A stretch of DNA of 37,436 bases, from positions 1 through 37,436 of the forward strand of contig MEUB01000029.1 of the NCBI GenBank assembly GCA_001771535.1, written 5' to 3'. Origin of the DNA: a candidate division WOR-1 bacterium RIFOXYB2_FULL_37_13. GTDB lineage: Bacteria; Margulisbacteria; WOR-1; XYC2-FULL-46-14; XYC2-FULL-37-10. A model generated the notes under the pieces. That model was not told the origin of the DNA. It did not search any database and saw nothing but the letters and a program-made list of their open reading frames with translations. A program made the translations under genes and the position numbers. The first letter of the stretch is position 1. Each line of letters begins with the position of its first letter. Shown here piece by piece: positions 2,494 through 37,436 of this stretch.

Positions 2494-4788
2494 GTGGCTC
2501 GAAAAAAAAATGACTCAAAGCAGGAACCTTCACCTTTTGCTCAGGATTTATCGGGGATACTTCTTGTGGCATTATCTGTTTTTATATTAGTATCCAATTT
2601 TTCATCTTCGACCGGATTAGTCGGCCTTTATCTTATAAAACTTTCTCTGCGAGCAATTCTTGGAATAGGAATTTATTTGCTTCCGTTTTTTATTGGAGCT
2701 TATGGCGTAGTTTTATTGTTTCGTCATGAAATAGCGGAACTAAGGATCAGGTTGGTCGGCCTCTTTACTCTTTTTTTGGCTTTTGTAACCGCAGTCCAAT
2801 TTTATTCTCCTTTTTATTTTAAAGCAGAAATTTCTCATAATATCATACAAGGCGCCGGCGGCATTTTGGGATATTTTTTGAAATTTGTTTTGGAAAGAAC
2901 GGTTGGGACAGTCGGTGCTTACATAGCAATAACTGTAATGGTTCTAATTTCAATGCTCCTTATTTTTAACATTACCGCTTTAATGGCGTTTAATTTTTTA
3001 AAATCTTTATTTGTTTTTATTCCTAAAAATTCCGTCCTTCAACAAAAAACTAGGCTACAGATAAAAGACAAAGAATTAATTACTGTTTCTGAGGGCTCTT
3101 TAATCCCTTCTCCGGCTCCTCCCCGGGAAATAGTTTCGTTTCCTGTTCCCCAGTATTCTTCTGATACGGAACCGGCAAAAGATTCTCAGCCTTATCCTCC
3201 GCTTGACCTTAATAATGAAACTGTGGGAGATGATGACTTTGATATTATTGAAGAGAAGCAGGAAAAAAAGAAGGCTTCTTATGCTAAATATAAGCTTCCG
3301 CCAATTTCTTTACTTGAAGATCCTTCTTCAAAGGATAAACAGATGCAGGAAAAGATCAAGGAAACTACAGAATTCAGAAAAAAACTTTTGGAAGAAACTC
3401 TGCGAAATTTTGGTGTCGGCGCTAGAGTTGTTTCCATTAATCAGGGGCCTGCTGTTACAAGATTTGAGCTTCAGCCCGATCCGGGAGTCAAGATCAGCAG
3501 GATAGCTTCTCTATCCGACGATATAGCCTTAAATCTTGCGGCTCAGGGGGTTCGTATTGAAGCTCCGGTTCCTGGGAGATCGGTTGTTGGAATAGAGGTT
3601 CCCAATACCAGTGTTACGGCTGTAAAACTCAAAGAGATAGTAAGGACCGATGAATTTCAAAAGAACCGGTCAAAAATTTTTATCGCGCTTGGAAAAGATT
3701 TGTCAGGGACTCCTGTTTACGGCGATCTTGCGAAAATGCCGCATCTTTTAATCGCGGGAACAACAGGATCGGGGAAATCTGTTTGTATAAATTCACTTAT
3801 AATAAGTATTTTACTCAGGGCGAGGCCGGATGAGGTCAAGTTCATAATGATTGATCCTAAGATGGTTGAGTTGTCTCTTTATGATGATATTCCGCATCTT
3901 CTGGCGCCTGTGGTAACCGATCCGCGTCGTGCGGCATTAACATTGAAAGAATGGGTCATGCGGGAGATGGAAAAAAGGTACCAGCTTTTTTATGATAACG
4001 CGGTAAGGAATATAGATGCTTACAATGGCAGACATGCCGATGAAAAACTTCCTCATATTCTTGTAATAATAGATGAGCTTGCTGATTTGATGATGGTTGC
4101 GGCTTCTGAAGTTGAGACGACAATTTGCCGTTTGGCACAGATGGCGCGTGCGACAGGCATACATCTTGTTATTGCTACACAGAGGCCTTCTGTTGATGTT
4201 ATAACTGGGCTTATTAAGGCAAATGTTCCTTCCAGAATTGCCTTTGCTGTGGCGACACAAATTGATTCAAGGGTTATTTTGGATTATTCCGGAGCTGAAA
4301 AACTGCTGGGAAGGGGAGATATGCTTTACAGTCCTATTGGAGCAATGAAACCTACAAGGATGCAGGGCTCTTTTGTAACAGACAAAGAAGCGGAAAAAAT
4401 TATCGATTTTATCAAAAGACAGGCTGCTCCCGATTATCTCGAGGAGATTACAGACTTAAAATTGCCGGATGGAGATGCAAAGGAGTTTGGTGCTCACGGA
4501 GCTTCGGGGAGAGACGCGTTATTTAATGATGCGGTAAGGCTTGTGATTGAATCAGGAGTTGCTTCGACCTCTTATCTTCAAAGGAGAATGCGTATAGGAT
4601 ACAACAGAGCAGCTAGGCTTATGGATGAAATAGAAGCGGCCAATATTGTAAGCAGGCCAGAAGGTGACAATAAGGGTCGCCGAATAATAGCAAGCGCAGA
4701 AATGCTTGCGGCGCTTAATATTTCTTTGATCCGTCCTTCGCAACCACCGCAGAAAGAAACGCCCGAATCAGAAAAAATTCCCGCATAG
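2494..4788 (+). CDS. ftsK: DNA translocase FtsK/SpoIIIE family
   Basis: Hexameric dsDNA pump at the division septum that segregates chromosome termini. At 764 residues it has the full architecture: several membrane helices in about the first 170 residues, a linker rich in Pro and charged residues (about 180-270), then the motor. The motor carries Walker A GTTGSGKS (422-429), Walker B HILVIIDELADLMM and the segment RATGIHLVIATQRPSVDVITG. A C-terminal winged-helix gamma domain (ALFNDAVRLVIESGVASTSY onward) would read orienting DNA sequences and contact XerD. The start is GTG, chosen because it lies directly after a TATAAT box and before the first membrane helix; there is no Shine-Dalgarno. The C-terminus ends in a Pro/Glu-rich tail. 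Confidence 0.96.
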   Translation: MARKKNDSKQEPSPFAQDLSGILLVALSVFILVSNFSSSTGLVGLYLIKLSLRAILGIGIYLLPFFIGAYGVVLLFRHEIAELRIRLVGLFTLFLAFVTAVQFYSPFYFKAEISHNIIQGAGGILGYFLKFVLERTVGTVGAYIAITVMVLISMLLIFNITALMAFNFLKSLFVFIPKNSVLQQKTRLQIKDKELITVSEGSLIPSPAPPREIVSFPVPQYSSDTEPAKDSQPYPPLDLNNETVGDDDFDIIEEKQEKKKASYAKYKLPPISLLEDPSSKDKQMQEKIKETTEFRKKLLEETLRNFGVGARVVSINQGPAVTRFELQPDPGVKISRIASLSDDIALNLAAQGVRIEAPVPGRSVVGIEVPNTSVTAVKLKEIVRTDEFQKNRSKIFIALGKDLSGTPVYGDLAKMPHLLIAGTTGSGKSVCINSLIISILLRARPDEVKFIMIDPKMVELSLYDDIPHLLAPVVTDPRRAALTLKEWVMREMEKRYQLFYDNAVRNIDAYNGRHADEKLPHILVIIDELADLMMVAASEVETTICRLAQMARATGIHLVIATQRPSVDVITGLIKANVPSRIAFAVATQIDSRVILDYSGAEKLLGRGDMLYSPIGAMKPTRMQGSFVTDKEAEKIIDFIKRQAAPDYLEEITDLKLPDGDAKEFGAHGASGRDALFNDAVRLVIESGVASTSYLQRRMRIGYNRAARLMDEIEAANIVSRPEGDNKGRRIIASAEMLAALNISLIRPSQPPQKETPESEKIPA

Positions 4789-33796: not shown

Positions 33797-33949
33797 AAAT
33801 GACTCTCTTTTTTTAAGTTTCTCTGCATTCTCCACACATATATCGTCATTTTTAAAGTTAAAATTCACCCAAGAAAAACGAAAAACGATATAATTGAATC
33901 AATATATAAATATCTTCACTTGGCGAATCTCCATTGTCCTGTTTTGTAT

Positions 33950-33979
33950 TTGACATGTTCGGGTGTGGTTTGTTACACT
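33950..33979 (+). promoter_or_regulatory. Promoter of the wHTH-NTase/HEPN pair
   Basis: Perfect TTGACA (33950-33955), 18-nt spacer, TACACT (33974-33979) with upstream TGT. The -10 overlaps the left half-site of the palindromic operator. Confidence 0.6.
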
Positions 33980-34004
33980 TATCGGTGTAATTCATTACAC
34001 CGAT
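33973..34004. promoter_or_regulatory. Palindromic operator with TTACAC/GTGTAA half-sites
   Basis: ATCGGTGTAA (33981-33990) is a perfect inverted match to TTACACCGAT (33995-34004) with a 4-nt spacer. An overlapping palindrome TTACACTTATCGGTGTAA (33973-33990) shares the central half-site. Three half-sites therefore lie 10-12 bp apart, across the -10 and the transcription start; a degenerate GTGTAC follows at 34014-34019. The location suits autorepression by the winged-helix protein encoded next. Confidence 0.65.
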
Positions 34005-34033
34005 GGGGTGCATGTGTACAACCAGGAGGGAGC

Positions 34034-34579
34034 ATGATATCTTTAATATCTAAGATAACAAGGGAATTGTTAAATTATTTTTTTGTCAATCCGCATGAAG
34101 GTTTATATGTTAATGAACTTGCAATAAAGCTTATGCTAGACAAAAGAAATCTTGTTAAAAAATTGAGGGAACTGGAAAAAGAAGGCATATTGAAAAGCCA
34201 AAAAAGGGGCAATTTAAAGCTTTATTCTGCAGATAAAAATTATCCCTTGTATGAAGAATATCGTAATATTATTCTTAAAACTTTTGGATTTGAAGATAAA
34301 CTAAAACAAATTATACATAAAACAAAAGGAGTAAAAATAGCTTTTATTTACGGCTCATATGCAGCAAACAAGATGGAGGCTTATAGCGATATAGATTTAT
34401 TGGTTGTTGGCAATCATGATATTATATTATTGCAAAAAATGATAAGTAAACTCCAAAAGGAAATTGACAGAGAAATTAATGTTGTAAATATGGATTCCTC
34501 GGATTATGAGAATAGACTGAAAAAGAAAGATCCTTTTGTAATGTCGATTATGAAAAGAAAGCATATAAAACTTTTATGA
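34034..34579 (+). CDS. Winged-helix/minimal nucleotidyltransferase fusion (putative antitoxin and autoregulator)
   Basis: The 181 residues combine an N-terminal winged helix (about 5-66; VNELAIKLMLDKRNLVKKLR as recognition region) with a minimal nucleotidyltransferase domain. The latter has IYGSYAANKMEAYSDIDLLV, the GSx10DxD motif at G107-S108, D119 and D121. The usual third acidic residue is unclear; the equivalent strand reads EINVVNM. Proteins of this kind pair with HEPN toxins and AMPylate them. I chose the ATG at 34034, four bases after AGGAGG (34024-34029); an upstream in-frame reading from 33920 runs through the operator and is not credible. The gene overlaps the HEPN gene by ATGA. Confidence 0.85.
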   Translation: MISLISKITRELLNYFFVNPHEGLYVNELAIKLMLDKRNLVKKLRELEKEGILKSQKRGNLKLYSADKNYPLYEEYRNIILKTFGFEDKLKQIIHKTKGVKIAFIYGSYAANKMEAYSDIDLLVVGNHDIILLQKMISKLQKEIDREINVVNMDSSDYENRLKKKDPFVMSIMKRKHIKLL

Positions 34580-36597: not shown

Positions 36598-37230
36598 ATG
36601 ACAAGTTTTTCAACGCGAGGGAGCCTCGTTACTCCTGATTTTCCAAAACTTTTTATGGATATTCGGACGCTGTTTCACAGCCGCGCATTAGGGCAAAGAA
36701 AAGAAGGAAAAGAGCAAGCTGCTAGATTGCTTGTTGGCGCTGGGCACGAAACAGAATTTTTGAAATTTTGTGAGAACTTGCCGAGGCAACTTAGTCTCAG
36801 AGATATATGTTTTTTCCCGACGCAACCAGTGGAATCAAAGGGGGCGAATAATCTCCGGTTTGATGTGGGCATAGGAGTTGGTAATAAGATGACATGGACA
36901 AAGTTTTCTGTTGCGATTAGAGATGAAAACTTGGGGGGATCAGAAACACCTGAAGCTTATCTTGCAGGATTAAGGACGAGCTCTAGTTTTTTAAGCGAAA
37001 CAATAACCCTTGATGACGGGATAGGTGCCGACTCTCCAAGTCAAGTAGAGTCCGCGAATTCAGTTCAGACATTAGCTGAAGTTGAGCAAGTCTTATTTTA
37101 TTATGTTTTGAATCAAAGGCTTACAACTATAGAGCGAGCAATTGCCAGTAATTTGTCATTAGCTCAGGGAGATCAGTCATTGAGACGCGCGGAACAAGAT
37201 GCTAGAATCAAAAGTCAGCGTCAACAATAA
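36598..37230 (+). CDS. Orphan protein, 210 aa
   Basis: Not recognised. It starts MTSFSTRGSLVTPDFPKLFM and has a polar, Ser/Thr-rich N-terminus without a hydrophobic signal peptide. A helical part (about 15-65) is followed by a beta-rich middle (about 75-110) and a helical C-terminal third (about 150-205), ending in a charged tail rich in Gln, Arg and Lys. AGGGGGAA precedes the ATG. It is monocistronic and similar in style to the other orphan proteins (4900, 13037, 19159, 31655). Function unknown. Confidence 0.72.
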   Translation: MTSFSTRGSLVTPDFPKLFMDIRTLFHSRALGQRKEGKEQAARLLVGAGHETEFLKFCENLPRQLSLRDICFFPTQPVESKGANNLRFDVGIGVGNKMTWTKFSVAIRDENLGGSETPEAYLAGLRTSSSFLSETITLDDGIGADSPSQVESANSVQTLAEVEQVLFYYVLNQRLTTIERAIASNLSLAQGDQSLRRAEQDARIKSQRQQ

Positions 37231-37266: not shown

Positions 37267-37373
37267 TTATGGGGCTGTTGCGAAATAGGCACCCCACATT
37301 AAAATGTGGGGAATTTGTGAGTAAATATTCCCCAGACTTAAGTCTGGGGTGGCATTATACAACAGTCCCATAA
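37267..37373. mobile_element. 107-bp structured element, MITE- or IS-end-like
   Basis: TTATGGGGCTGTTG (37267-37280) and CAACAGTCCCATAA (37360-37373) are terminal inverted repeats matching at 13 of 14 positions. Inside are two perfect hairpins: CCCCACATT-AA-AATGTGGGG (37292-37311) and the palindrome CCCCAGACTTAAGTCTGGGG (37330-37349). No coding capacity is present. It is either a small non-autonomous element or one edge of a larger element that continues beyond the window. Confidence 0.55.
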
Positions 37374-37388
37374 ACACGAAAACAAGCA

Positions 37389-37405
37389 AACCCTTCTGAA
37401 GGGTT
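37389..37405 (+). repeat. Third hairpin near the window end
   Basis: AACCCTT (37389-37395), loop CTG, AAGGGTT (37399-37405). It lies between the structured element and a GGAGGA (37431-37436) at the last bases of the window, which looks like the ribosome-binding site of a gene starting just outside. Confidence 0.5.
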
Positions 37406-37436
37406 CATTTCTCGACGAAAGGTTTCAGCAGGAGGA

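Follow-up and report, generated by a model that had tools for sequence, protein, structure and literature searches.

The segment at positions 37271–37369 of the window is very probably a non-autonomous composite element, present as an old copy, in which a REPIN is bracketed by terminal inverted repeats (TIRs) resembling those of the IS5 family. This reading, drawn from sequence comparison, was based on the identity of the TIRs, the 5-bp target duplications found in relatives, and a transposase located between TIRs of the same kind. It was also based on the core, which was free-standing elsewhere and lay beside RAYT genes, and on the apparent inheritance of the copy from an ancestor common with G001, a genome of the same family. 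The window was the whole 37,436-nt contig C29 of the candidate division WOR-1 genome under study (G000), and position 37436 was therefore the contig end, with no gene start or transposase observed after GGAGGA. The features of the contig-end stretch (37267–37436) and its neighboring gene were as follows, with the strand given where one applies.

36598–37230, plus strand: upstream gene of 210 aa, without a Pfam match
37271–37369: composite element of 99 bp, a MITE with a REPIN core, delimited by comparison with relatives
37271–37287, plus strand: left TIR, GGGGCTGTTGCGAAATA, with 0 mismatches to the pattern GGGNCTGTTGCNNAAT; the same end was present on MITEs of G001, G006, and G068 and on IS5-like IS copies
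37292–37311: first REP hairpin, CCCCACATTAAAATGTGGGG, a perfect inverted repeat with a 9-bp stem and a 2-nt loop, fitting the REP pattern
37312–37329: REPIN spacer with AAT/ATT edges, between both REP hairpins
37330–37349: second REP hairpin, CCCCAGACTTAAGTCTGGGG, a perfect inverted repeat with a 10-bp stem and no loop
37353–37369, minus strand: right TIR, CATTATACAACAGTCCC, with 1 mismatch to the TIR pattern on this strand
37389–37405: third hairpin, outside the element, perfect, with an 8-bp stem and a 1-nt loop
37431–37436, plus strand: GGAGGA, the last six bases of the contig

Structure and locus of the window copy

The described structure is real and lies far beyond chance. The segment 37267–37373 folded at −50 kcal/mol, compared with −25.9 kcal/mol (s.d. 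3.15) in 200 dinucleotide shuffles, which corresponded to a z value of −7.65. When the 170-bp stretch was shuffled 2000 times by mononucleotides, a perfect stem of at least 8 with a loop of at most 2 arose in 18 shuffles; for 37374–37436, 2 shuffles out of 2000 gave such a stem. The two main hairpins were inverted copies of one another (25 nt, 80%), and the core had the structure of a REPIN, with two inverted REP palindromes and a spacer. The 14-bp TIRs, two perfect hairpins, third hairpin, and GGAGGA described in the earlier note were all present, but the borders of the repeats had to be redrawn. The 14-nt arms (37267–37280 and 37360–37373) matched at 13 of 14 positions, and comparison with relatives placed the outer 4 nt of each arm (TTAT/ATAA) outside the element. 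The true TIR, GGGNCTGTTGCNNAATG, was about 17 nt long and started at 37271, and the element ran from GGGG at 37271 to CCC at 37369.

The element was non-coding, with no ORF of at least 100 aa across it, and began 40 bp past the stop codon of the 210-aa gene. This position and the very stable fold could point to a transcription terminator or an RNA-stabilizing structure of the upstream gene as the main role of the stretch. However, no T-run followed the hairpins, no Rfam family scored above threshold, and the same sequence recurred as a dispersed repeat, and such a main role is very unlikely; termination or stabilization may be a side effect of the element. The Rfam matches to RybB and ClpQY_promoter were both far below threshold and were judged to be chance. 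Elsewhere in the window, a perfect hairpin, ATCGGTGTAATTCATTACACCGAT, was located at 33981–34004, within a reading frame (33920–34579) matching nucleotidyltransferase families.

A genome search found no second copy of the 170-bp stretch in G000, and the second hairpin had no further copy there at up to 3 mismatches. In a nucleotide search of 57 genomes, a copy with 97% identity was found in G001, downstream of the ortholog of the 210-aa gene, the two proteins being 75% identical. Because the two copies lie behind orthologous genes, the window insertion is most likely older than the split of G000 and G001, as judged from the sequences compared. The right TIR was decayed in the orthologous G001 copy, and the G000 and G001 sequences diverged beyond it. 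The hairpin pair alone (query positions 92–151) recurred across the class in the same search, which scored 13 of the 53 first-look candidates in G001 and may miss ACCCC-type REPs there. The exact core-to-TIR junction was found in one stretch among genome contigs, in Candidatus Saganbacteria WPAF01000012.1.

The earlier note had named further copies and target duplications as the marks of a mobile element, and a single copy followed by an unrelated housekeeping gene as the sign against one. The element was single in its own genome, but it belonged to a dispersed MITE family that was multi-copy in relatives, where many elements shared its TIRs. The window copy was without a clean 5-bp duplication (ATTAT on the left, ATAAA on the right).

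At the place in G001 equivalent to the contig end, a CGTC-like hairpin was recognized by eye, followed by a run of N. As this run begins near the corresponding position, GGAGGA may belong to another repeat and not be a ribosome-binding site. That two assemblies break off at almost one position points to a difficult repeat, and GGAGGA is no more than a putative ribosome-binding site. The hairpins with GGAGGA, and the tendency of contigs to break at repeats, would also suit an IS200/IS605 or RAYT gene that begins immediately after the contig end, in which case the stretch would be its left flank and GGAGGA its ribosome-binding site. This arrangement is extremely improbable, as the search for a RAYT or Y1 transposase (PF01797) gave 0 matches in G000, an incomplete assembly in which a gene in a gap would be missed, and G001 after its gap contained short reading frames and no Y1 transposase in a three-frame translation inspected by eye.

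The TIR shell and an IS5-like transposase

Four of 74 phylum genomes contained the TIR pair GGGNCTGTTG..CAACAGNCCC at a spacing of 50–110 nt (once in G000, seven times in G001, once in G006, which is of the same order as the window genome, and twice in G068), and the backward control of this pattern gave 0 matches in the 74 genomes. The single TIR pattern was present in 21 of these genomes, and G001 alone had 30 matches in forward and 38 in reverse orientation; no exact single-TIR match was found in G003, G005, G009, G013, G022, and G028. Fifty-six TIR-bounded elements, 3 of them overlapping alternates, were read when each TIR was allowed up to 3 mismatches. Exact 5-bp direct repeats flanked 27 of these elements, compared with 0.56 expected from mispaired flanks. 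One element had a 6-bp repeat, and the remaining 28, including the window copy, had no exact repeat of 5 or 6 bp. The 5-bp footprint is therefore true of the family and not of the window copy. The MITE reading of the earlier note was borne out by the TIRs and internal hairpins, and by relatives that carried the same TIRs both on many short elements with 5-bp duplications and on an IS5-like IS. A second family of elements in G000 had TIRs of this kind (GGGTCTGTTGC..) around a different inverted interior of 144–177 bp, and was located at C54:2677–2853 (L078), C61:8138–8281 (L079), and C65:4868 (L080).

The best TIR match with a complete transposase came from G048, a more distant genome of the phylum. 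The G048 copy was a complete IS of 1213 bp, in which the TIR GGGACTGTCGCGAAAT and an inverted right end enclosed the gene of a 320-aa protein, with ACTTT, a 5-bp target duplication, on both sides. The 320-aa protein matched DUF772 and DDE_Tnp_1 above the Pfam cut-off. Plasmid relatives of the transposase, all below 60% identity, were mostly annotated as IS5 family transposases among the annotated matches listed, and the plasmid search with a 55-aa transposase fragment found nothing. The TIR was also located shortly upstream of the start of a related transposase in G056, G068, and G070, and the TIRs were common to the window MITE family and the IS5-like IS, as the complete G048 copy and the partial copies in these three genomes. 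In G000, a frameshifted IS5-like relative with one TIR-like end was present at C17; an intact IS able to have moved the window copy was not found in G000 or G001.

The TIR pair at G056:C33 enclosed no intact transposase frame, only a partial match. Two other assignments were rejected. An IS6-type origin of the shell, suggested by the look of the TIR, did not agree with the 5-bp duplications and the enclosed DUF772/DDE_Tnp_1 protein. The shell was not a direct member of IS200/IS605, because the incomplete G000 assembly had no PF01797 match and the TIRs belonged to a DDE-type IS.

From the shared ends and the shared duplication length, we infer that an IS5-like transposase would mobilize the MITEs in trans. 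A REPIN would have been captured by two TIRs, or inserted into a minimal TIR–TIR element, in an ancestor. An IS5-like DDE transposase would have recognized the ends and moved the unit of about 100 bp, with its REPIN interior, in trans. The unit most likely inserted downstream of the 210-aa gene before G000 and G001 separated and has decayed since, and the present copy would be immobile, with hairpins forming at most a passive structure behind the neighboring gene.

Both origins of the composite, by REPIN insertion and by capture between two TIRs, fit the data, and G001 contains minimal forms of 48–54 bp, which are short MITEs almost devoid of an interior. These near-empty MITEs, and the other small palindromes that occur inside elements of this kind, would also be in line with a REPIN inserted by a RAYT into a MITE that was already in place, in which case the composite would never have moved as one piece. 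This sequence of events is unlikely, as composites of TIR and ACCCC core were present at other loci of G005 and G006, two of them with direct repeats at the TIR ends: a composite with a looser TIR in G005 had a direct repeat of at least 5 bp, and one in G006 had a 6-bp direct repeat. From these repeats, the composite appears to move as one piece, at any rate in G005 and G006.

The REPIN core and the other cores of the shell

A search of 31 class genomes gave 56 places, spread over 9 of the genomes, with doublets of the form CCCCANNNTNNANNNTGGGGAAT..ATTCCCCANNNTNNANNNTGGGG and AAT..ATT edges; the control gave 0 matches. In the 53 distinct doublets, 316 of 318 unconstrained stem positions paired, compared with a shuffle mean of 224 and a maximum of 241. 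All 53 of these ACCCC-type doublets were heterodimers, with the same variable triplet in the two stems in 0 of 53, compared with 15.1 of 53 expected by shuffling and a minimum of 4 in 20000 shuffles. A preference for heterodimers is known in other REP families and is given without explanation in the available text of PMC3733652.

Doublets were located inside TIRs in G000, in G001 (one TIR decayed), and at G006:C26, and 13 other doublets whose flanks were read were free-standing, none of them inside TIRs. RAYT-type genes (PF01797) were present in 34 of the 74 phylum genomes, with an internal stop codon in the single G001 gene. Of 20 RAYT loci scanned in the phylum, 6 (L059, L060, L062, L063, L064, and L071) had ACCCC-type hairpins near the RAYT gene, and a whole-locus scan found no CCCC..GGGG hairpin in the RAYT loci L055, L057, and L069. 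The resemblance to REP-associated or IS200-like transposase loci, to which the earlier note had drawn attention, thus applied to the hairpin core and to the flanking RAYT genes in relatives, but not to the outer TIRs, which are those of a DDE-type IS.

The same observations, a core that is a REPIN by structure and RAYT genes that adjoin such hairpins in relatives, would be accommodated by an ordinary REPIN moved by a RAYT, with an outer inverted repeat that is unrelated or due to chance. This alternative is highly unlikely and is largely refuted by the recurrence of the outer TIR with other cores and 5-bp duplications, and beside IS5-like transposases; moreover, the host genome had no detected RAYT. 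Composites or half-composites of REPIN and TIR were observed right beside a RAYT gene at L008/L064 (G005:C1, about 697050–697173) and L039/L062 (G006:C19, about 3050–3125), which are possible places where REPIN and shell first met.

The TIR shell was not restricted to one core, and held at least two other hairpin cores in relatives. Automatic labels with tight motifs assigned 33 of the 56 elements to the CGTC type (GTCATTCCCG..), 4 to the ACCCC type, 3 to the CACCCTGAG type, and 16 to none, and these motifs miss diverged cores such as those of L151–L153 of G006, which were readable by eye. The AACCCCGATTAT hairpin was located inside 9 of the 56 elements, and CTGCCTGCC-type palindromes inside G006 elements. 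In L151 and L153 (G006:C12 and C49), the small palindromes CTGCCTGCCGGCAGGCAG and GACTCGACTGAGCTCGTCGAAGTC were located in the loops of REP hairpins, forming a hairpin within a hairpin within a MITE.

The GTCATTCCCG hairpins were provisionally assigned as CGTC-type REPs from the description in the available text of PMC3733652 rather than from a database match. In G001, 112 of 117 CGTC-type matches were grouped into 71 clusters, from which 3 at segment edges were left out. Among the 68 scorable clusters, from stretches taken around TIR matches as well as around REP matches, a TIR was present within 80 bp on both sides in 48, on one side in 19, and on neither side in 1; the corresponding numbers in the shuffled-flank control were 0, 3, and 65. 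The single CGTC-type match of G000 had a TIR with one mismatch on one side. The 10 CGTC-type matches read in G006 and G002 were free, two with a one-sided TIR-like word (3 mismatches) and none with a pair. Since a single expanding family (88, 119, and 144 bp) accounts for many of the G001 copies, these numbers show carriage and not many independent captures, and the minimum is one capture per core type.

CGTC REPs are described without a dedicated transposase, and their spread is stated as an open question in the available text of PMC3733652. The relatives suggest that wrapping in TIRs lets repeats without an enzyme of their own keep spreading. By such vehicle switching, it is possible, although rather doubtful, that REP doublets whose dedicated transposase was lost or never existed survive and increase in number while carried in a MITE shell of the DDE type. 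The ACCCC-type REPIN of the window lay in the same shell, in a host genome without a detected RAYT. Several REP types are carried here by a single TIR shell whose 5-bp footprint is clear, which makes the idea of a carrier for partnerless REPs testable. How many REPs a genome contains may also mirror how active a transposon of quite another kind is.

Comparison with known mobile elements

MITEs and REPINs are each already known. No description of a REP core in IS5-type TIRs was found in the literature searched, including the available texts of PMC3733652, PMC3116915, and PMC2817692, which does not prove its absence from print; the matches listed for the TIR letters in literature text were unrelated by title.

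When compared with MITEs derived from IS5-family (DDE) IS, the element was likewise short and non-coding, shared its TIRs with an IS, and had a target duplication of fixed length in relatives. However, its interior was a REP doublet and not a deleted IS, and the shell held several core types. When compared with the REPINs described in the available text of PMC3116915, the two inverted REP hairpins and the spacer were the same, and the link to RAYT was seen in relatives, whereas the doublet was bracketed by TIRs of a DDE-type IS in a host genome without a detected RAYT.

The REP dimers of Anabaena variabilis (GTAG-15) and Halothiobacillus neapolitanus (CGTC-1), as presented in the available text of PMC3733652, are also located at the heart of a longer inverted repeat. 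That text links the outer palindrome neither to an IS nor to a target duplication, whereas here it was linked to both, and one shell held several REP types. Within the literature searched, the new features appear to be that the outer palindrome could be connected to an IS whose duplication was measured and that a single shell contained several REP types.
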